DNA of 64,000 bases. Source: Gemmatimonadetes bacterium T265. Its GTDB lineage: Bacteria; Gemmatimonadota; Gemmatimonadetes; Gemmatimonadales; Gemmatimonadaceae. The notes under the pieces are model-generated. The model searched no databases. It was given only the letters and a program-made list of their open reading frames with translations, and was not told the origin of the DNA. Made by a program: the position numbers and the translations under genes. The DNA lies in contig BPUI01000001.1 of assembly GCA_019973575.1 (NCBI GenBank), positions 1,116,001 through 1,180,000 of the forward strand, in the 5' to 3' direction. The number at the start of each line of letters is the position of its first letter. Position 1 is the first letter of the stretch. Below are positions 10,763 through 19,948 of the stretch, in pieces.

Positions 10763-11008
10763 TCAGGGCGTCTTCGTGGCGCCCGCCGAGCCGCCGCTCA
10801 TGCTCGAGGAGTCCGTCATCGCCTTCTTCGCGGCCCGGTGGTGCCGCTTCCGGGTGCTGTGCTTCTTCATGCCGGACTTCATGGACGACGAGTCCTGCAT
10901 CGTGCTGCCGGCCGCGGCGCCCGTCGTCGAGCCGGTGGCGGGCTGCTGCTGGGCGGCGGCGGTGCCGGCCGCGAGGGCGAGCGCGGCGAACGCGAGGCGA
11001 GCCTTCAT
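10763..11008 (-). CDS. small secreted basic protein, unknown function
   Basis: 81 residues from ATG 11008, preceded by GGAG at a good distance. The first ~20 residues are a signal peptide (MKARLAFAALALAAGTAAAQ). The mature part is short and low-complexity. It has a Ser/Thr/Gly-rich start, a strongly basic, His-containing centre (KSGMKKHSTRKRHHRAAKKA), then SSSMSGGSAG. Similar little proteins with 'KKHHRKHH'-like centres are common in these genomes as secreted, possibly acid-response-like or envelope-associated proteins, but no function is assigned. A strong terminator follows, so it is probably a single-gene unit. Confidence 0.65.
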   Translation of the reverse strand: MKARLAFAALALAAGTAAAQQQPATGSTTGAAAGSTMQDSSSMKSGMKKHSTRKRHHRAAKKAMTDSSSMSGGSAGATKTP

Positions 11009-11532
11009 GCGAGTGCTCCGTGTTGAGGGGTGGTGCAGTCGCGTGCGCCGGCGCCACTCGCCGGTGAGCGGCGCCTGCACGCGGTGCTCACGCTATTGCC
11101 CCGACCGCGCCCGCGCCAGAGGGCGCCGCGTCCGGGCCGCGCGGACGCCACCGCATGACGTACACGCGCCGTACACGCGCGGCACGCGCGGCACGCGCGC
11201 GGCGGCATGTGCGTGACGGGCGTGTAAGGCCGCGCACGCGCGCGCGCGCGGACGGCGCGCGTGCGACTGCGTGCGATCGCGCGCGGACGCGACGAATACG
11301 CGACGAATTCGCGCGCGCGGCTTGACTGTTACGTCGCACACGCTTATCACGTCGTCACGCGGAGTCGCGTTGCGCGCACGGACGGCGCCGCGCGACGACG
11401 CGCGGGCCGCGCGCCACGCGCATTCGTCGCGTTGTGAATCGAACACCACGCGTACGGGGCACGCGGCGTGCAAGGCGGTGCGGTGGCGGCAGTCCGTCGA
11501 CGACTCACAGGAGGCGCGCACAGGAGGCGCAC
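11009..11532. other. long intergenic region with alternating CG tracts
   Basis: About 520 bases without a convincing gene. Positions ~11160-11320 are dominated by CGCGCG-type alternating purine-pyrimidine runs and short direct repeats (ACACGCGC, GGCACGCGC, CGCGACGAAT twice). A promoter-like pair follows at 11322-11350. Two AGGAGGCGC copies (11509-11530) precede the ATG of the next gene. Confidence 0.6.
11322..11350 (+). promoter_or_regulatory. sigma-70-type promoter for the acidic/H1-like gene
   Basis: TTGACT (11322-11327) and TTATCA (11344-11349, spacer 16) or TATCAC (11345-11350, spacer 17). These lie about 190 bases upstream of ATG 11533 in otherwise extremely GC-rich DNA. It would give a long 5' leader. 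Confidence 0.5.
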
Positions 11533-12669
11533 ATGCCCACGGGTGACGGGTTGGACGAGGAGCTCGCGCCGGAGTTCCGTCTCGCGCCGCGGCGCGGCGA
11601 CGACGACGACGACGACCTCGGCGGATACGGCTACGACGACGCCGACGAGGAAGAGGACGACGAGGAGGAGGAAGACGAGGACGAAGGCAGCGCCGCCTAC
11701 GCCGCACGGCGCAGTCGGCGCGAGCGCCTGTTCGACGACCCCGAGTCGGCGGCGCGCGAGGACCTCGACGAGGTCGAGGTGGAGGAAGACGTCGGCGCGG
11801 CGGGCGACGCCGAGGACGCGGACGACGACGAGCGCGGTGCGATCGTCGGGCCGGACGACGACCCGGAACAGCTCGACCTCGCCGCCGGCGCGGCAGGCCA
11901 GGACGCGGAGCAGGACGCTGACCCCCTCGACGTCGACGACGACGACGACGAGGCGGACCTCGGCGGCGGCAGCGGCAGTGGCAGTGCGACGATTTCCCAC
12001 CATTCCCACGACGAGGTGACGACCATGGCCGAGAACGAGACTCCCAACGGCGACGAGATGAACGCCACCCCCGCCGCCGCGACGGGCGGCGACGCCGGCG
12101 GCGCGGGCGAGACGACCGACGGCGGCGCGCGCGGCCGCGGCGCGCGCAAGACCGGCGCGCGCAAGGGTACGGCGAAGGGCGGCGCGCGTAAGGCCGCCGG
12201 CAAGAGCGGCGCGAAGACCGCCGCCAAGAGCGCGAGCAAGACGGGCGCGCGCAAGGGCGCCGCCAAGAGCGCGTCGAAGAGCGCGAGCAAGACGGGCGCG
12301 CGCAAGGGCGCGAGCAAGACCGGCGCGAAGACGGCGAGCAAGAGCGCCGCCAAGAGCGGGGCGCGCAAGACGACGGCGAAGTCCGCGAGCAAGACGGGCG
12401 CACGCAAGGGCGCCGCCAAGAGCGCGTCGAAGAGCGCGAGCAAGACGGGCGCGCGCAAGGGCGCGAGCAAGACCGGCGCGAAGACGGCGAGCAAGACGGG
12501 CGCGCGCAAGGGCGCGAGCAAGACCGGCGCGAAGACGGCGAGCAAGACCGGCGCGCGCAAGGGCGCGAGCAAGACCGCCGCGAAGGGCGGCGCCCGTAAG
12601 GCCGCCGGCCGCCCCGCGAACGCGTCGCGCGGCGCGGCGAAGAAGGCCGGGACGCGCCGCGGGCGCTGA
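11533..12669 (+). CDS. acidic-domain / histone-H1-like repeat protein
   Basis: 378 residues from ATG 11533, which follows AGGAGGCGC. Residues 1-164 are extremely acidic, with runs of Asp and Glu (RRGDDDDDDLGG, DEEEDDEEEEDEDEG), and end in a His/Ser linker. Residues ~165-195 are a neutral linker beginning at an internal Met with its own ribosome site. Residues ~195-378 are Lys/Ala/Ser/Gly/Arg repeats (SKTGARKGA, SKTGAKTA) with almost no hydrophobic residues. They are like the tail of eukaryotic histone H1, chlamydial Hc1/Hc2 or mycobacterial HupB. The basic part should bind DNA without sequence preference. The acidic part could mask it or bind other basic proteins, as in histone chaperones. 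I know no named family with this order. Confidence 0.8.
   Translation: MPTGDGLDEELAPEFRLAPRRGDDDDDDLGGYGYDDADEEEDDEEEEDEDEGSAAYAARRSRRERLFDDPESAAREDLDEVEVEEDVGAAGDAEDADDDERGAIVGPDDDPEQLDLAAGAAGQDAEQDADPLDVDDDDDEADLGGGSGSGSATISHHSHDEVTTMAENETPNGDEMNATPAAATGGDAGGAGETTDGGARGRGARKTGARKGTAKGGARKAAGKSGAKTAAKSASKTGARKGAAKSASKSASKTGARKGASKTGAKTASKSAAKSGARKTTAKSASKTGARKGAAKSASKSASKTGARKGASKTGAKTASKTGARKGASKTGAKTASKTGARKGASKTAAKGGARKAAGRPANASRGAAKKAGTRRGR
12025..12669 (+). CDS. possible internally initiated H1-like short form
   Basis: ATG 12025 is in frame with the long protein and is preceded by GAGG at 8 bases. It would produce 214 residues starting MAENETPNGDEMNATPAAA, a typical start for a short H1-like protein, and consisting almost entirely of the basic repeat domain. 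In many bacteria the H1-like protein exists alone. Here it may be made both as an acidic fusion and as a free form, or the gene may simply be annotated too long upstream. The strong ribosome site at 11533 argues that the long form is also made. Confidence 0.45.
   Translation: MAENETPNGDEMNATPAAATGGDAGGAGETTDGGARGRGARKTGARKGTAKGGARKAAGKSGAKTAAKSASKTGARKGAAKSASKSASKTGARKGASKTGAKTASKSAAKSGARKTTAKSASKTGARKGAAKSASKSASKTGARKGASKTGAKTASKTGARKGASKTGAKTASKTGARKGASKTAAKGGARKAAGRPANASRGAAKKAGTRRGR
12130..12640 (+). repeat. nested tandem repeats encoding SKTGARKGA units
   Basis: The DNA of the basic domain is built from 24-27-base units. At a higher level, a block of about 108 bases recurs with a period of 153 bases (about 12233-12340 and 12386-12493) with one visible mismatch. 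The near-identity shows recent duplication, and repeat number probably varies between strains. Confidence 0.8.
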
Positions 12670-12716: not shown

Positions 12717-14120
12717 GTGGGACCGGCCGTGCTCGACGCCCTGCCGTTCGCGGTCTGGACCGCGGACGGCGGCCTGCGGGCCACTGGCGGGAACGCGGCG
12801 TGGGCGCGGCTCGCCGCCGACCCCGCCGCGCGCGCCGCCCTCGGGCGCGCGGCCGCGCGCGCGCGCGACCAGTCGTCCCCCGCGCGCTGCACACTCTCGT
12901 CGCCCGCGCGCACACTCCGCGTCGACGTCGCCCCGCTCGGCGACGCGCAATTCGTCTGCTCGGCCGTCGAGCTGAGCGAGCCGCGGGCATCGTCGCCGCC
13001 CGGGGCGACGCCGGCGCGCCGGGCGCGTGAGGCGCTGATCGACGCCGGACTCGCGCTCTCGCGCACGCTCGACATCGACGGCGTCCACCAGGAAGTCGCG
13101 CGGCAGGCGCGGCGCGCCCTCGGCGCCGACGCGATCGCCGTGGCCGCCGCGGACGACGAGACGGCCGCGCTCCGCCTCACGCACCGCGCGGGCTGGGCCG
13201 ACGAGCGCGATTCCGACCTCGAACGACGCCTCGCCCCCGCGTGGCTCGAGGCGCTCGCCACCCGCCGCGTCGTCGAACGCACGGACGGCGAGTTCACCGC
13301 GCCCGCGACGACCTCCGACGGCGCGCTCGGCGCGCTCACCGTGCGCGTGCCCAACGCGGACGCCGACGAGGCCGCGCGCCTGCTCGACACGTTCGCCGCG
13401 CAGACGGCGGTCGCGGTCGAGCGCGCGTGGCTCGTACGGCGCGTCGAACAGAAGCGGCGCCTCGAGGCGATCGGCGAGGTCGCGGCCGGCGTCGCGCACG
13501 AGCTGCGCAACCCGCTGTTCGGCATCTCGAGCGCGGCGCAGCTACTCGGCTTCCGCGCCGGCGACGACCCGGCGGTCGAGAAGAACGTCGGGCGCATCCT
13601 GCGCGAGGCCGAGCGCCTCAACCGCATCATCGCCGCGCTGCTCGACTACGGGCGGCCCGCGGCGGCCCGGCTCGCGCCCGGCGACCCGGACGCGCTCTGG
13701 GACGACGTGCTCGACGCGCAGCGCGCGCGCCTCGACGCGAAGCGCCTCACGCTCGAGCGGCGGCGCGCGGACGGCGTCGCCGCGCGGCGGTTCGACGCCG
13801 AACAACTCCGGCAGGTGTTCCTCAACGTGCTCGGCAACGCCGTCGACGCCGCGCCCGAGGGGAGCACGCTCACGCTCGCCGCGGCCGTCCTGCCCAACGG
13901 CGCATGGCGCTGCCACCTGCACAACGGCGGCCCCGCCGTACCGGCGGAGTCGCTCGCGCGCGTGTTCGAGCTGTTCTACTCGACGAAGCCCGGCGGCACC
14001 GGGATCGGGCTCGCGCTCTGCCGGCGCGTGATGGACGAGCACGGCGGCGCGATCACGATCGAGAGCGCGCCGGAGGCGGGGACGACGGTCGCGGTCACGC
14101 TGCCGCCGGCCCCGCCGTAA
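12717..14120 (+). CDS. sensor histidine kinase (PAS-like, GAF, HisKA, HATPase)
   Basis: 467 residues from GTG 12717. A short PAS-like segment (LDALPFAVWTADGGLRATGGN) is followed by a GAF-type domain at ~105-240 (EALIDAGLALSRTLDIDGVHQEV, LLDTFAAQTAVAVERAWL). HisKA follows with the phosphoacceptor in EVAAGVAHELRNPLFGISSAAQ. HATPase_c has QVFLNVLGNAVDAA (N box), FELFYSTKPGGTGIGLALCRRVMDEHGG (F and G boxes). There is no membrane segment, so it is a cytoplasmic sensor. The NtrB-like 'HELRNPL' and 'YSTKPGGTGIGL' fit kinases that phosphorylate NtrC-type regulators; one such regulator lies at 18578. No receiver gene is adjacent, so the partner is uncertain. Confidence 0.9.
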   Translation: MGPAVLDALPFAVWTADGGLRATGGNAAWARLAADPAARAALGRAAARARDQSSPARCTLSSPARTLRVDVAPLGDAQFVCSAVELSEPRASSPPGATPARRAREALIDAGLALSRTLDIDGVHQEVARQARRALGADAIAVAAADDETAALRLTHRAGWADERDSDLERRLAPAWLEALATRRVVERTDGEFTAPATTSDGALGALTVRVPNADADEAARLLDTFAAQTAVAVERAWLVRRVEQKRRLEAIGEVAAGVAHELRNPLFGISSAAQLLGFRAGDDPAVEKNVGRILREAERLNRIIAALLDYGRPAAARLAPGDPDALWDDVLDAQRARLDAKRLTLERRRADGVAARRFDAEQLRQVFLNVLGNAVDAAPEGSTLTLAAAVLPNGAWRCHLHNGGPAVPAESLARVFELFYSTKPGGTGIGLALCRRVMDEHGGAITIESAPEAGTTVAVTLPPAPP

Positions 14121-14195: not shown

Positions 14196-16778
14196 TCAGT
14201 CATGCGCGCTTTCGCGCGGAGCTCCGTTATTCGGGCGCCCGTCGAACCCGCGCGCCCGCAGCGTGTCGAGCCGGGCGCGCACCTCACGGCTCGCCTCCGC
14301 AGGCACGCCATCGGCGTCCCAGGTCGCGAGCACCTCGCGGAGCCGCACCGCGGCGCCCGCCGAGTCGCCGCGCCGCAACCGTGCGTGGGCCGCCCAGAGG
14401 GCGCCCGAGGTCGTCGCGAGTGCGGCGTCGTTCGCGCGCCCGAACGCGCGCAGCCGCTCCGCCTCGCGCAGCACGGCGTCCCACCGGCCGAGGGCGGCGA
14501 GCACCATGTTCGACCGGTCGACGATGTCCACCTGCACCGGCGCGATCACGTCGGGGAGCGCGGCGAGCGTTGCGAGCGCGCTGTCGGCTTCGGCCACGGC
14601 GGTTGCGGTGTCGTGGCGGGCGAGCGCGCTCGCCGCGCGGTACGCCCGGAAGTGTGCCGCCTCGCGGCTGCGGGGCCCGTAGCCGAGCGTGGCGAGGCGG
14701 ATCCCTTCGCGGAGGACCGAGTCGGACGCGGCGAGCGCGCCGGCGGCGGCGAGGAGGCCGCCGTGCCCGAGCAGCGCGTCCAGCCGCTCGACGGCCATCG
14801 GGGCGCCGAGCGAGTCCATGATCGCGATCGCGTGGACGAAGTGCGCGTCGTCGGAGTCGCGGCGTACGGTGCCGAGCACGCGCAGCGCCCAGGCGCGCGC
14901 GGCGGTCGGGGCGCGCGTGCGGGCCTCTTCGGCGGCGATCACCTCGGTCGCGAGCGAGTCCGCCGCCCGGCCGCGCCCGCGCGCGAGGGCGAGGGTCGCG
15001 CGCGCGCCGACGACCCGGGCGCGCAACTCGCCAAGCGTGCCGTCCTGCGCCGCGTCGTGGGCGGGGAGCGCCGCGCATGCGGCATCGAGATGGCGCTCGG
15101 CAGCCGCGAAGCCGTTCATGCGCAGGGCCGCCAGCCCCGCCGCGAGACTCGCCTCGGCGAAGGCGGTCGAGCGCGGCCCGTAGCTCGCGCCCGCGAGGAC
15201 GACGGCCGAGTCGAGGACGGCGGCCGCCGCGCGCGCCCGGTCCTGCGCGACGTAGGTGGCGCCGATGGCGGTGTAGAGCCGGGCGCGCACGCGCGGGTCG
15301 GCGGGGAATGCGGCGGGCACGCGGCGCACCGCGCTGTCGAGCACCTCCGCGAGCGTGGCCTGTCGTCCGACGCGCGTCACCACGCCGCCCGTGGTCGCGT
15401 CGGGCGCGCCGAGCATGGTCTGCAGGAAGGCGGCGACGCGCTCCGAGCGGTCGGCCTCGCGCCGGCTCTCGCGCGCCTCCCAGAGCGCGACGCCGCTGCC
15501 GACGACGAGCGCCGCCGCCGCGACCGCGACGCCGCCCATGAGCGCGCGCTGCCGCCGGGCGAAGCTCCGCACGCGGTAGGCGACGGTGTCGGGGCGCGCG
15601 AGCACGCGGTCCCGCCGCAGGTAGCGCCGCACGTCCTCGGCGAGCGCGTCGGCGGTGGCGTAGCGGCGCGCGGGGTCGTCGCGCAGCGCCATCCCGGCGA
15701 TCGCGTCGAGCTCGCCGCGGAGGGCACGCGCGTGCTGGGCGGACGAGGCGAAGCCGCGCGCCGCCGCGGCGCCGTCGCCGTCCGCCCGCGCGAGCGCGCT
15801 CGGCGCGACCGGCGCGCGCCCGTCGCGCGCGAACGCCCAGCGCATCTCGTCGGCCGTGAGCCCGTCGACGCCGAACGGCGGGCGGCCGGCGAGCAGCACG
15901 GTGAGCAGCGCGCCTAACGCGTAGACGTCGGTCGCCGTCGAGACGCGGCCGCCGGCGAGCTGTTCGGGGGCGGCGTAGGTGGCCGTGAATGGCGCGAGGC
16001 CCGCCCCGGTGAGCGTCCCCGGGTCGGCGGACCCGGCGCGCGGGTCGTCGACGAGCTTCGCGACGCCGAAGTCGAGCAGCTTGGCCGTGCCGTCCGCGGT
16101 GACGAGCACGTTGCCCGGCTTGAGGTCGCGGTGGACGACGAGGTTACGGTGCGCGTAGGCGACCGCCGCGCACACCTGGCGGAAGAGGTCGAGGCGCGCG
16201 GGAATCGGCAGACGCCGCGCGTCGCAGTAGCGGTCGATCGGCTCCCCCTCGACGTATTCCATGACGAGGTAGGGCGTCCCCTCGTCCGTCGCGCCGCCGT
16301 CCAACAGTTGCGCGATGTTGGGGTGCTGCAGCCCGGCGAGGATCTGCCGCTCGGAGCGGAAGCGGCGCGCGAGCACGGCGCTGTCCGCCCCGCGCCAGAG
16401 CGTCTTGAGCGCGACGCGGTGCTGGTACGCGTCGTCGGCGCGGGCGGCCGTGTAGACGGCGCCCATCCCGCCCTGCCCCAACCGCTCCAGTACCACGTAC
16501 GGCCCGAGCCGGCGGCCGACAAGCGACGGCGCCTCGGCCCACCCGGCGTGCGCGCGCGCGCCGCCGCTCGCGTCGGGGCGGAAGACCACATGCGAGGTCT
16601 CGAGGCGCGCGCCGAGCGAGGCGTCGGCGTCGAGCAGGCGCACGACGTAGGCGCGGACGGTCGGGTCGAGCGCGGGATCGTCGAGCAGGCGCGTGCGGCC
16701 GGTGGGAGTCGCGTCCTGCGCGGCCGCGAAGAGCCGCTTGACGTGGGCCCAGGTGGCGGGCGGAAGGGCGGCGGGCAT
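14196..16778 (-). CDS. PknB-type Ser/Thr protein kinase with TPR-like C-terminal region
   Basis: 860 residues from ATG 16778. After ~85 N-terminal residues the kinase domain starts with YVVLERLGQGGMGAVY (Gly loop at ~100-108) and the ATP-binding Lys in RVALKTL. It contains VVHRDLKPGNVLV (catalytic loop), LLDFGVAKL (DFG) and TYAAPEQLAGG (activation segment end). A single membrane helix (LMGGVAVAAAALVVGSGVALW) at about 425-445 leads to ~400 residues of alanine-rich helical repeats outside the membrane, resembling tetratricopeptides. The upstream gene is an ECF sigma factor, 42 bases away. This kinase/sigma pairing recurs in Gemmatimonadota, Acidobacteriota and Planctomycetota and suggests that the kinase gates the sigma factor. 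Confidence 0.92.
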   Translation of the reverse strand: MPAALPPATWAHVKRLFAAAQDATPTGRTRLLDDPALDPTVRAYVVRLLDADASLGARLETSHVVFRPDASGGARAHAGWAEAPSLVGRRLGPYVVLERLGQGGMGAVYTAARADDAYQHRVALKTLWRGADSAVLARRFRSERQILAGLQHPNIAQLLDGGATDEGTPYLVMEYVEGEPIDRYCDARRLPIPARLDLFRQVCAAVAYAHRNLVVHRDLKPGNVLVTADGTAKLLDFGVAKLVDDPRAGSADPGTLTGAGLAPFTATYAAPEQLAGGRVSTATDVYALGALLTVLLAGRPPFGVDGLTADEMRWAFARDGRAPVAPSALARADGDGAAAARGFASSAQHARALRGELDAIAGMALRDDPARRYATADALAEDVRRYLRRDRVLARPDTVAYRVRSFARRQRALMGGVAVAAAALVVGSGVALWEARESRREADRSERVAAFLQTMLGAPDATTGGVVTRVGRQATLAEVLDSAVRRVPAAFPADPRVRARLYTAIGATYVAQDRARAAAAVLDSAVVLAGASYGPRSTAFAEASLAAGLAALRMNGFAAAERHLDAACAALPAHDAAQDGTLGELRARVVGARATLALARGRGRAADSLATEVIAAEEARTRAPTAARAWALRVLGTVRRDSDDAHFVHAIAIMDSLGAPMAVERLDALLGHGGLLAAAGALAASDSVLREGIRLATLGYGPRSREAAHFRAYRAASALARHDTATAVAEADSALATLAALPDVIAPVQVDIVDRSNMVLAALGRWDAVLREAERLRAFGRANDAALATTSGALWAAHARLRRGDSAGAAVRLREVLATWDADGVPAEASREVRARLDTLRARGFDGRPNNGAPRESAHD

Positions 16779-16820
16779 GCGAGACGGCAGTCAGCCGGCG
16801 CGACGGTCAGCCGTTCCCCG

Positions 16821-17405
16821 TCAGCCGTCGCGCAGCTCCGCGGCGAGCCACGCGCGCGCCATCGCCCACTCGCGCGAGACGGTCACGGGCGACACGCCGA
16901 GCACGGCGGCGGTCTCGTCGAGGGTGAGGCCGACGAAGAAGCGGAGCTCGACGACGCGCGCCTGCCGGGCGTCGAGTGCGGCGAGCGATTCGAGCGCGTC
17001 GTGCACGCGCAGCACGTCGAGCGGCGCGCCCGCGCCGTCGGCCAGGCCGATCACGTCGTCGAGCGCGACCGGGACGCCGCCGTCGCGCTTGGTGGTCTGC
17101 GCGCGGCGTGCGTGGTCGACGAGCACCTGCCGCATGACGCGCGCGGCCATGCCGAAGAAGTGGGCGCGGTTGCGCCAGTCGACCGGCGCGCCGCCGAAGA
17201 GGCGCAGGTACGCCTCGTGGACGAGCGCGGTGGGCTGGAGGGTGTGGTCGGCGCGCTCGCGCCGCAGGTGGCCGGCGGCGAGCGTGCGCAGCTCGTCGTA
17301 CACGGCCCGCGCCAGCGCGTCGGTCGCGCCCGCCTCCCCATCGCGCACGGCGGTGAGGAGGTGGGTGAGCGGAGCGGGCTCGGCGTGTGCCAGCGAGGGT
17401 GGCAT
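16821..17405 (-). CDS. ECF-family RNA polymerase sigma factor (Sig-70_X6 type)
   Basis: 194 residues from ATG 17405. Region 2 runs from ALARAVYDELRTLAAGHLRRE through TLQPTALVHEAYLRLFGG and FFGMAARVMRQVLVDHARR. Region 4 is RQARVVELRFFVGLTLDETAAVLGVSPVTVSREWAMARAWL. The TLQPTALVHEAYLRL and FFGMAARVMR strings are hallmarks of the 'TIGR02999/Sig-70_X6' ECF group, which is genetically linked to Ser/Thr kinases and has no classical anti-sigma factor. It is the first gene of the sigma-kinase pair, with a 42-base gap to the kinase. The PEP-CTERM gene upstream reads in the same direction and might belong to its regulon. Confidence 0.92.
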   Translation of the reverse strand: MPPSLAHAEPAPLTHLLTAVRDGEAGATDALARAVYDELRTLAAGHLRRERADHTLQPTALVHEAYLRLFGGAPVDWRNRAHFFGMAARVMRQVLVDHARRAQTTKRDGGVPVALDDVIGLADGAGAPLDVLRVHDALESLAALDARQARVVELRFFVGLTLDETAAVLGVSPVTVSREWAMARAWLAAELRDG

Positions 17406-17531
17406 GCGGGACGGATGGGGACGAATCCCGACGGACTCGCTCCAACATGCACACAAACTGCTGGTTGCGAAATGGCGCAGGACTGCTACACGGTCGGGCC
17501 GCAGCGCGCCCGGCGTCCACTTCGCGCGCGA

Positions 17532-18434
17532 TCACGCCGAAATCCGACGCCGGCGCGCGACGCCGCCGACCGCGAGAAGGCCCGCGCCGAGCAGCGCCCA
17601 GGTCGAGGGCTCCGGGGTGTTCGTCATGCCGCCGCCCCCGCCGCCGGGTGCGACAAGGCGCGACTGGTAGATGGCGTCGATCTGCGCCGCCGACAGGTCG
17701 GTGTTGAACACCGCCACGTCCGCGATCGCGCCGTCGAAGGCGCGAGGCCCGCCGTAGTATGTGTCATTCCCGATGACGAACGGCGCGTTGTTGAGGGAGT
17801 GCGACCCCGGCGTATTGCTCCCGGCGAGCACGCCGTTGACGTACACCTCGCGATCGGAGTTGGCGGTGAAGGTGCCGGCGACGAAGATCCACTGACCCAC
17901 GTTACTCGCCGTGAAAGCGGGCGCGGCGGTGTACCCCCCTGCGTCAGTGTAGAACCGCAGCGTGTTGTCACCGAAGACGCCGAAGCCGAAGTCGTTGCCG
18001 TACTGCGGCTCCTCGGCGATCGTGAAGATGCGCCCCCCCTGCGTGGTCGGCAGCGAGGCGAGGTTGATCCACGCGACAATGCTGCCGCTGTTGCCGATGC
18101 CGCCGAGGAGCGGGTTACTGCCGCCCGATGTGGCGTACTTCTGCCCGCTCGCGCCGTTGTTCAGGATCAGGGCGGAGCTCGACGGGTCGCTGATGTTCGG
18201 ACCGCTCGCGGGGCCGCCGACTGTCGCGCCGTTCTGGAGCGTGCCCGTGTAGCCGTTCACGGCGCTGTTGGCCTGCGTCGCCTGTGTGAACGTGTAGTAG
18301 GCGAGGAGGCCGGGGGTGCTCTCGACGGTCGCGGTGTACCCCTGCGCGTGGGCCGCGCGGGCGCCGAGTGTGGCGGCGACGGCGAGGAGCGGGAGGCCGC
18401 GTCGGGCGGCGCGGGCGATGGACGGGACGGACAT
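17532..18434 (-). CDS. LamG-domain PEP-CTERM exported protein
   Basis: 300 residues from ATG 18434. A signal peptide (RRGLPLLAVAATLGARAAHAQG) leads to a concanavalin/LamG jellyroll of about 200 residues: GLLAYYTFTQAT at the start, then GSIVAWINLASLP, GQWIFVAGTFTANSDREVYVNGVLAG and FDGAIADVAVFNTDLSAAQIDAIY. A glycine linker is followed by the sorting signal TPEPSTWALLGAGLLAVGG and a basic tail. PEP-CTERM proteins are cut by an exosortase and released to the surface or matrix. No exosortase gene is in this window. LamG folds bind sugars or adhesion ligands. It is divergent from an NtrC-type activator. Confidence 0.93.
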   Translation of the reverse strand: MSVPSIARAARRGLPLLAVAATLGARAAHAQGYTATVESTPGLLAYYTFTQATQANSAVNGYTGTLQNGATVGGPASGPNISDPSSSALILNNGASGQKYATSGGSNPLLGGIGNSGSIVAWINLASLPTTQGGRIFTIAEEPQYGNDFGFGVFGDNTLRFYTDAGGYTAAPAFTASNVGQWIFVAGTFTANSDREVYVNGVLAGSNTPGSHSLNNAPFVIGNDTYYGGPRAFDGAIADVAVFNTDLSAAQIDAIYQSRLVAPGGGGGGMTNTPEPSTWALLGAGLLAVGGVARRRRISA

Positions 18435-18577
18435 GCAGCACCTGGGTGAGAAGAGGATACGGGGCAGCTCGTCGTGAGCGGCCATACGTTCAGGCGCGAA
18501 AATTTCCCGGATCACGTCATCGTCTTCCCACCCGCCCTCTTGCCGTCGCGCGTTCGGCGGCCGACCCTTCGGTCACC

Positions 18578-19948
18578 ATGCTTTCCGTTCTCGTCGTCGA
18601 CGACGACCCGACCACCCGCGAGACGCTCGCCGAATACTTCACCGGACGGGGGTACGCGGTGCGCACCGCCGCGAGCGCGACCGAAGGGCGCCGGTCGGCC
18701 GCGGCGCACTCGCCCGACGTGGCCGTCGTCGACCTTCGACTGCCCGATGCGAGCGGGCTGACGCTGTTCGAGGCGTTGCGCGCCGACGACCCCGAGCTCG
18801 CGGTCGTCTTCCTCACCGGGTACGCCGACGTGCCGAGTGCCGTGCGCGCGATGCGCGACGGGGCGGCGGACTTTCTGGAGAAGCCGATCGACCTCGCCGC
18901 GCTCGACGCGGCCGTGCGGCGTGCGGCCGACCACGCGGGGATGCGCCGCGAGCTGCAGCTGCTCCGCGCGCGCGACGCGGAGGCGCTCTGGCAGGACAGC
19001 GCGCCCGCCACGCTGACGCCCGCGCTCGCCCCGTCGCTCGACCGTTTGGTGGCACTCGCGGCGCGGAACGACGACGTCCCGGTGCTGATCATCGGCGAGA
19101 CGGGAACCGGCAAGGGATTCGTGGCGCGGCGAATCCATGAGCTGTCCTCCCGCGCGACGTGCCCGTTCGTCGAGATCAACGGCGCCTCCCTGGCCGGCGC
19201 GCTCGTCGAGAGCGAGCTGTTCGGCCACGAAAAGGGCGCGTTCACCGACGCGCGGCAGGCGAAGCGCGGGCTGCTCGAGGTAGCCGGGCGCGGGACGCTC
19301 TTCCTCGACGAGGTCGCGGAGCTCGCCCCGGAGGTGCAGCCGAAGCTGCTCAAGGTGATCGAGGAACGCACCTTCCGGCGCGTGGGCGGGACGGCGACGC
19401 TGACGAGCGAGGCGCGACTGCTCGTCGCGACGCACACGGCGCTCGAGCAGGCGGTGGACGCGGGACAGTTCCGCGCCGATCTGTACTACCGGCTCCAGGT
19501 GCTGACCATCGCGCTGCCGCCGCTCCGGGATCGTCCCGAGCAGATCCCGACGCTCGCGCGAACGTTCCTCCCGCCCGGGGCCACGCTGCCCGAGGTCGCG
19601 GTGGCCGCGCTCATCGCCTACGACTGGCCGGGGAACATCCGCGAGCTGAAGAACGCGCTCTGGCGCGCGACGATCCTCTCCGACGGCGGCGCGATCCTCC
19701 CGGAGCACCTGGGACTCGGCGTGGCGCGGCGCCCCGCCCCCGACCGCCAGGTCGCGCTGCCGGTGATGACCCTCGCCGACGCCGAACGCCGCGCGATCGA
19801 CGTGGCGCTGAGCGCGACCCGAGGAAACCGGACACGGGCGGCGAGCCTTCTCGGTATTGCACGCTCGACGCTGAATGAGAAGCTCCGCACCGCGGCCGCG
19901 GCGCCCGCTCCCCGCGCGACGCCGCACGCCGGCCAGCGCAGCGTCTAG
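18578..19948 (+). CDS. NtrC-family response regulator with GAFTDA variant
   Basis: 456 residues from ATG 18578. The receiver domain (LSVLVVDDDPTTRETL, phospho-Asp in VVDLRLPD at ~52, Lys in DFLEKPID) is followed by an AAA+ domain. That domain has Walker A GETGTGKG, Walker B GTLFLDEVAEL, and the L1 loop FGHEKGAFTDARQAKRG. It ends in a Fis-type helix-turn-helix (NRTRAASLLGIARSTLNEKL). The usual sigma-54 contact motif GAFTGA is here GAFTDA, a substitution that may weaken or alter sigma-54 activation. It is divergent from the PEP-CTERM gene, like PrsR-type regulators of PEP-CTERM/exopolysaccharide loci. A strong terminator follows. Confidence 0.9.
   Translation: MLSVLVVDDDPTTRETLAEYFTGRGYAVRTAASATEGRRSAAAHSPDVAVVDLRLPDASGLTLFEALRADDPELAVVFLTGYADVPSAVRAMRDGAADFLEKPIDLAALDAAVRRAADHAGMRRELQLLRARDAEALWQDSAPATLTPALAPSLDRLVALAARNDDVPVLIIGETGTGKGFVARRIHELSSRATCPFVEINGASLAGALVESELFGHEKGAFTDARQAKRGLLEVAGRGTLFLDEVAELAPEVQPKLLKVIEERTFRRVGGTATLTSEARLLVATHTALEQAVDAGQFRADLYYRLQVLTIALPPLRDRPEQIPTLARTFLPPGATLPEVAVAALIAYDWPGNIRELKNALWRATILSDGGAILPEHLGLGVARRPAPDRQVALPVMTLADAERRAIDVALSATRGNRTRAASLLGIARSTLNEKLRTAAAAPAPRATPHAGQRSV

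Follow-up and report, generated by a model that had tools for sequence, protein, structure and literature searches.

The gene on the forward strand at positions 11533–12669 of the window (the whole 64,000-nucleotide stretch of DNA analysed here) couples a strongly acidic half to a lysine-rich tail resembling histone H1, raising the question of whether such a fusion is a local accident or a member of a genuine protein family, and, if the latter, what the acidic domain might be doing on a basic tail and whether one or two proteins are made from the gene. On the evidence of sequence comparison, the window gene is the local member of a previously unnamed, family-wide, single-copy protein family of the Gemmatimonadaceae.

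The window gene and its two halves

The open reading frame extends from ATG 11533 to TGA 12669 and encodes 378 residues, an acidic half being followed by an H1-like tail rich in Lys, Ala, Ser, Gly and Arg (Table 1). The initial annotation, made from the letters of the DNA alone, had described a single gene encoding both halves, and this description was borne out with respect to the reading frame, its coordinates and the two halves. The charge minimum falls at residue 196, with a net charge of −62 up to that point and +56 beyond it, and a 51-nt (17-residue) repeat forms the building unit of the tail. The start codon is preceded, with a 5-nt spacer, by AGGAGG (11522–11527), the ribosome-binding site of the full-length start; the two AGGAGG words of the upstream duplication are 13 nt apart. 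A TTGTGAATC-like block upstream, common by eye to the window and the homologous locus in G015, is a candidate promoter.

Table 1. Positions of the gene, its parts and neighbouring features within the window
Feature	Position	Strand	Evidence
Two AGGAGG words (11509–11514, 11522–11527), small direct duplication	11509..11527	+	Read from sequence
Full gene, 378 aa, acidic half and H1-like tail	11533..12669	+	Orthologs throughout the family, single-copy; order unchanged in all complete sequences
Conserved acidic core, residues 1–90, family-defining N-terminal domain	11533..11802	+	Alignments, profile; dN/dS about 0.02–0.37 by pair
Motif region: predicted helix 54–68 and L-[WF]-D (here LFDD, residues 66–69)	11692..11739	+	AlphaFold; motif in 67/67 orthologs
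Second acidic stretch, ending ADLGGG, homologous to the family's EEEDLFGG	11788..11970	+	Alignment
Clade-specific linker, residues 147–198, G000/G015/G182 only	11971..12126	+	Alignment
Possible internal start: GAGGTGA 12013–12019, 5-nt spacer, ATG 12025–12027	12013..12027	+	Duplex energy, local MFE
H1-like Lys/Ala/Ser/Gly/Arg tail, 51-nt repeat, terminal TRRGR	12127..12666	+	Repeat; all complete orthologs have a basic tail
GAF/HisKA/HATPase histidine kinase, syntenic neighbour; no part in the function is claimed	12717..14120	+	Pfam; directly downstream, same strand, in 19/42 loci

An AlphaFold model built with 42 sequences has a mean pLDDT of 45.8, and the protein is predicted to be disordered; the single notable predicted helix, residues 54–68, adjoins LFDD and is the block of best confidence (pLDDT about 59–65). 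The mean net charges of the halves are alike in size (−34 and +43), with a Pearson correlation of 0.45 and a Spearman correlation of 0.19 that are uncorrected for kinship and too weak to establish charge balance in itself. Comparison of the window protein with Pfam and NCBIfam returned no matching family in either library, the tail alone scoring 11 bits against HC2, for which the curated cut-off is 40. The likeness to chlamydial Hc2, to the Burkholderia-type H1-like proteins (PF07382, NF038052, NF038053) and to Rv3852 lies in the composition of the Lys-rich tail; tails of some relatives match the HC2, hist_H1_lk_Burk and Rv3852 models (best E 3.7e-18), low-complexity Lys tails matching H1 models by composition, whereas the window member falls short of every curated whole-protein cut-off and matches none. 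These models describe basic proteins without an acidic domain.

Distribution and conservation of the family

A search with the acidic half alone recovered a homolog in another genus (G015), its gene likewise an acidic-basic fusion, and a two-sequence profile recovered fusions in further genera. A contig scan with the whole window protein as query gave no match; among the matches listed by a second contig scan were at least three Gemmatimonadota records, one labelled Gemmatimonadaceae, and it is on these named records that the name Gemmatimonadaceae rests. An earlier, narrower profile, built from eight acidic domains, had matches in 124 of 179 family genomes and in 29 of 35 genera, at one place per genome bar a few cases split over contig ends. 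With a profile of 42 acidic N-terminal domains, a single-copy match was obtained in 124 of 140 Gemmatimonadaceae genomes and in none of the 255 genomes sampled from elsewhere in the phylum, where 140 and 255 are totals counted from the profile's listing of matches and non-matches, and the genome counts are lower bounds because few candidates were scored per genome. The window gene itself matches the N-terminal profile, carries the L[WF]D motif and the basic tail, and is present in one copy per genome.

The acidic domain comes first and the basic tail second in every complete relative in a broader set of 63, in which sequences with a short tail or none run off contig or locus ends, and almost all members of a set of 42 orthologs have AGGAGG or GGAGG 4–6 nt 5′ of the homologous ATG. 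Relatives with only the short form and non-coding sequence upstream, which would have spoken against the initial annotation, were thus not encountered. A search of relatives for the acidic half as a separate gene, which that annotation had proposed, found none. Neither was a standalone short form found in G000, G015, G182, G016 or G003, the other Lys-rich matches examined being tails or extensions on other proteins (SWIB and ribosomal L29, for example). With orthologs in about 29 genera, a one-off fusion or assembly accident was rejected as an explanation. No description of the acidic/H1-like family was found in the open-licence literature, and nothing relevant to Gemmatimonas and histones or the nucleoid at the level of title and abstract in open-licence papers.

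Lys/Ala H1-like extensions were also identified by eye on other proteins (L147, L144, L026, L027, L028), the carriers being a ribosomal L29-like protein, topoisomerase I-like proteins and, in the genome to which the window belongs, a SWIB-domain-like protein. From such sequences, the H1-like tail seems to be in wide use as a module among the Gemmatimonadaceae.

The family consensus reads MPRGDELxExLRFxDRDDDxDDxGY..GG..SYDDDDDEDGGWxxxKDxSDxLWDSxDDxDDDDEE...EEEExDLFGxxAPRRRGRP, beyond which a long AKP/AKK/KGG tail often ends in KKGRR or similar. L[WF][DE][DENS] is present at residues 47–66 in all 67 distinct sequences, and L-[WF]-D in a broader context pattern in 66 of 67 orthologs, as against 0.66 of 67 (maximum 4) after shuffling of each N-terminus. 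A chance origin was rejected on this contrast and on the recovery of the acidic half by homology inside the Gemmatimonadaceae as opposed to outside. The fixed aromatic motif of the acidic domain, GGW...SDxLWDSxED in the family, reads RRERLFDDPESA in the window member, which is divergent, having RRERLFDDPESAARED where others carry SDxLWDSxED. A GRP or RGRK joint is found at residues 61–170 in 39 of 67 members; the window protein has GARGRGAR only. In one genus (L072, L044, L045) a second stretch of acidic sequence separates the RGRP joint from the basic tail, and the charge minimum lies at residues 170–173 rather than at about 84.

Six pairs were compared; in each of them dN is lower in the acidic core than in the tail, as is dN/dS wherever dS could be computed, using Nei-Gojobori counts whose tail values are rough because low-complexity tails align poorly. 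The contrast is clearest for L073/L101 (0.02 in the core vs 0.32 in the tail), L082/L108 (0.05 vs 0.17) and L088/L107 (0.10 vs 0.46); in L071/L100 the core dS is saturated, with dN values of 0.07 and 0.40 for core and tail, and in L035/L099, from the window's own clade, the contrast is small (0.37 vs 0.41). These lower values indicate that the acidic half is almost certainly translated and more constrained than the tail, and argue for a sequence-specific function of the acidic part, beyond its charge.

In addition to the histidine kinase listed in Table 1, an RND pump is encoded 5′ of the gene in 17 of 42 loci and a MerR-type regulator nearby in 34, and these shared neighbours support orthology while naming no function. 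The histidine kinase and a sigma-54 response regulator (18368–19948) lie apart in the window and are adjacent in L071 and L100; the intervening block (14196–18515), on the other strand, encodes a Ser/Thr kinase, an ECF sigma factor and a LamG/PEP-CTERM protein. At 10763–11005, on the reverse strand, is a gene for a small predicted secreted protein with a signal peptide-like MKARLAFAALALAAGTAAA, a Lys/His/Arg-rich middle and no Pfam match.

The candidate internal start

The initial annotation also drew attention to ATG 12025 (codon 165) as a second start, and the codon is indeed in frame, with GAGGTGA at a spacing of 5 nt. Initiation there is plausible in the window: the duplex energy of −11.5 kcal/mol is among the best 2.7% of codons and exceeds that of the main start (−10.3), and the local MFE is −5.9 compared with a mean of −17.6, placing it among the weakest 4%. 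The tetranucleotide GAGG alone was rejected as proof, since 4-nt SD-like words precede 31–43% of codons in the acidic halves of G000, G015 and G182; a 7-nt SD match is rarer, at 0.5% of codons across 42 genes.

Among those 42 genes, an ATG at the homologous junction is confined to G000, G015 and G182, in which nearly all in-frame internal ATG codons cluster at the junction, those of the window gene falling without exception within the linker, itself an insertion specific to this clade. In G015 and G182 local structure at the junction ATG is very weak (weakest 0.4% and 1.5%), but the SD there is ordinary, 39–53% of codons matching or exceeding its −5.9. No equivalent start was found at the junction in the other 39 genes; a few of them (e.g. 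L079, L104) do have isolated ATG or GTG codons behind SD-like words at other places, which is to be expected where coding sequence is rich in Glu. Use of ATG 12025 would yield, from one mRNA, a free H1-like protein beside a self-masked long form, for which the strength of the window SD, the weak structure and the clustering of internal ATGs in all three clade genes all speak. Against this, the short form would retain about 34 linker residues, and the recurrence of the ATG in just two close relatives, with an ordinary SD, means that two products would be lineage-specific at most. The internal start is therefore possible in the window, judging by its sequence context, but is no property of the family, and synthesis of two products seems to us rather improbable, if still the strongest of the alternatives considered.

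Proposed function and comparison with known proteins

The acidic domain with its aromatic motif, the RGRP-like joint present in most members and the H1-like tail always occur in one chain. The function that we favour, with about an even chance of being correct, is that of a disordered nucleoid-type protein whose tail grips DNA or another polyanion and is tempered by the acidic motif domain, which also binds a partner. Charge would let the tail bind DNA, or perhaps polyphosphate or RNA. The acidic domain would bind a specific partner through its aromatic motif, and would fold back on the tail, competing with DNA and lowering the tail's non-specific affinity. Tail binding combined with partner binding and fold-back would suit the protein to act as a regulated adaptor on the nucleoid, and not to compact DNA in bulk. 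It is the predicted disorder, the charge segregation, the constrained aromatic-acidic motif and the H1-like tail that together suggest binding, a partner and masking. Of the self-masked fusion envisaged by the initial annotation, the conserved acidic domain stands, a self-tempered nucleic acid binder being its most natural reading; the accompanying internal start does not generalise. Synteny points to no partner, the RND pump, histidine kinase and MerR-type regulator being neighbours in varying subsets.

The nearest known design, by analogy of layout, is that of Myxococcus CarD, in which acidic sequence leads into AT-hooks. The C-terminal, HMGA-like domain of the M. xanthus protein is intrinsically unfolded and, as in the present bacterial family, places an acidic segment before a basic region, in CarD one of DNA-binding repeats that contain RGRP (PMC4374960), so that the earlier remark that no family with this order had been described holds only in part. 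CarD differs in beginning with a folded domain that binds RNA polymerase and CarG, which is absent here (CarD_CdnL Pfam matches in 0 of 42 members), and in ending in AT-hooks, whereas RGRP-like words are few in the long H1-like tail that closes the Gemmatimonadaceae proteins. We know of no description of an L-[WF]-D acidic motif in CarD. The resemblance raises the alternative of a transcription factor-like or RNA polymerase adaptor, in which the acidic aromatic motif would bind RNA polymerase, a sigma factor or a CarG-like partner and the tail would hold promoter DNA. The acidic-then-basic order shared with CarD's acidic-then-RGRP domain (PMC4374960) and the regulator-rich surroundings, with their histidine kinase and MerR-type genes, are in keeping with such a role, but the missing CarD_CdnL domain and neighbours that vary, and are not obviously one regulon, make it unlikely, somewhat more so than the two-product scheme.

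Less probable again is a granule or condensate scaffold, in which the tail would bind polyphosphate or DNA and the acidic part would drive complex coacervation, much as AlgP and PhaF position granules on the nucleoid. The family protein is a charge-segregated disordered polyampholyte, and the disordered Lys/Ala/Pro tails of AlgP and PhaF resemble the histone H1 C-terminal domain, the KPAA tail of AlgP recalling the AKP/KPA tails of many members (PMC9239181). The AlgP tail, however, is carried on a putative alpha-helical N-terminal domain, whereas the N-terminal half of the window protein is acidic and mostly disordered, so that the likeness is one of the tails in kind; moreover, no polyphosphate or PHA gene was noted nearby. 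Similarly doubtful is the idea of a lineage-wide counterpart of an acidic histone chaperone fused to its H1-like cargo, with the window's clade also making the cargo alone from the internal start; if true, the balance between the masked and the free DNA-binding protein would be set by one mRNA. Eukaryotic HMGA2 and HMGB1 likewise combine basic DNA-binding and acidic disordered parts in one chain, but with the acidic part C-terminal, and no sequence relationship is claimed (PMC4482583, PMC10853541). Finally, that GC-rich repeat DNA has been read as a protein without function, as the repetitive sequence and long open antisense frames might hint, is refuted by single-copy conservation, a conserved start site, dN well below dS and the fixed aromatic motif, and can be dismissed.

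The acidic/H1-like fusion family appears to be new with respect to the open-licence literature, although acidic-then-basic order and H1-like tails were each already known (from CarD, and from AlgP, PhaF and Hc2-type proteins, respectively). Almost all genomes in this major family of soil bacteria encode, in a single copy, a protein missing from the family databases, which has the look of a nucleoid factor carrying its own acidic regulator. Since the acidic half is the better conserved, identification of its partner and a test of masking and unmasking are direct. More broadly, bacterial H1-like tails appear as modules, the meaning of which depends on the domain to which they are joined.
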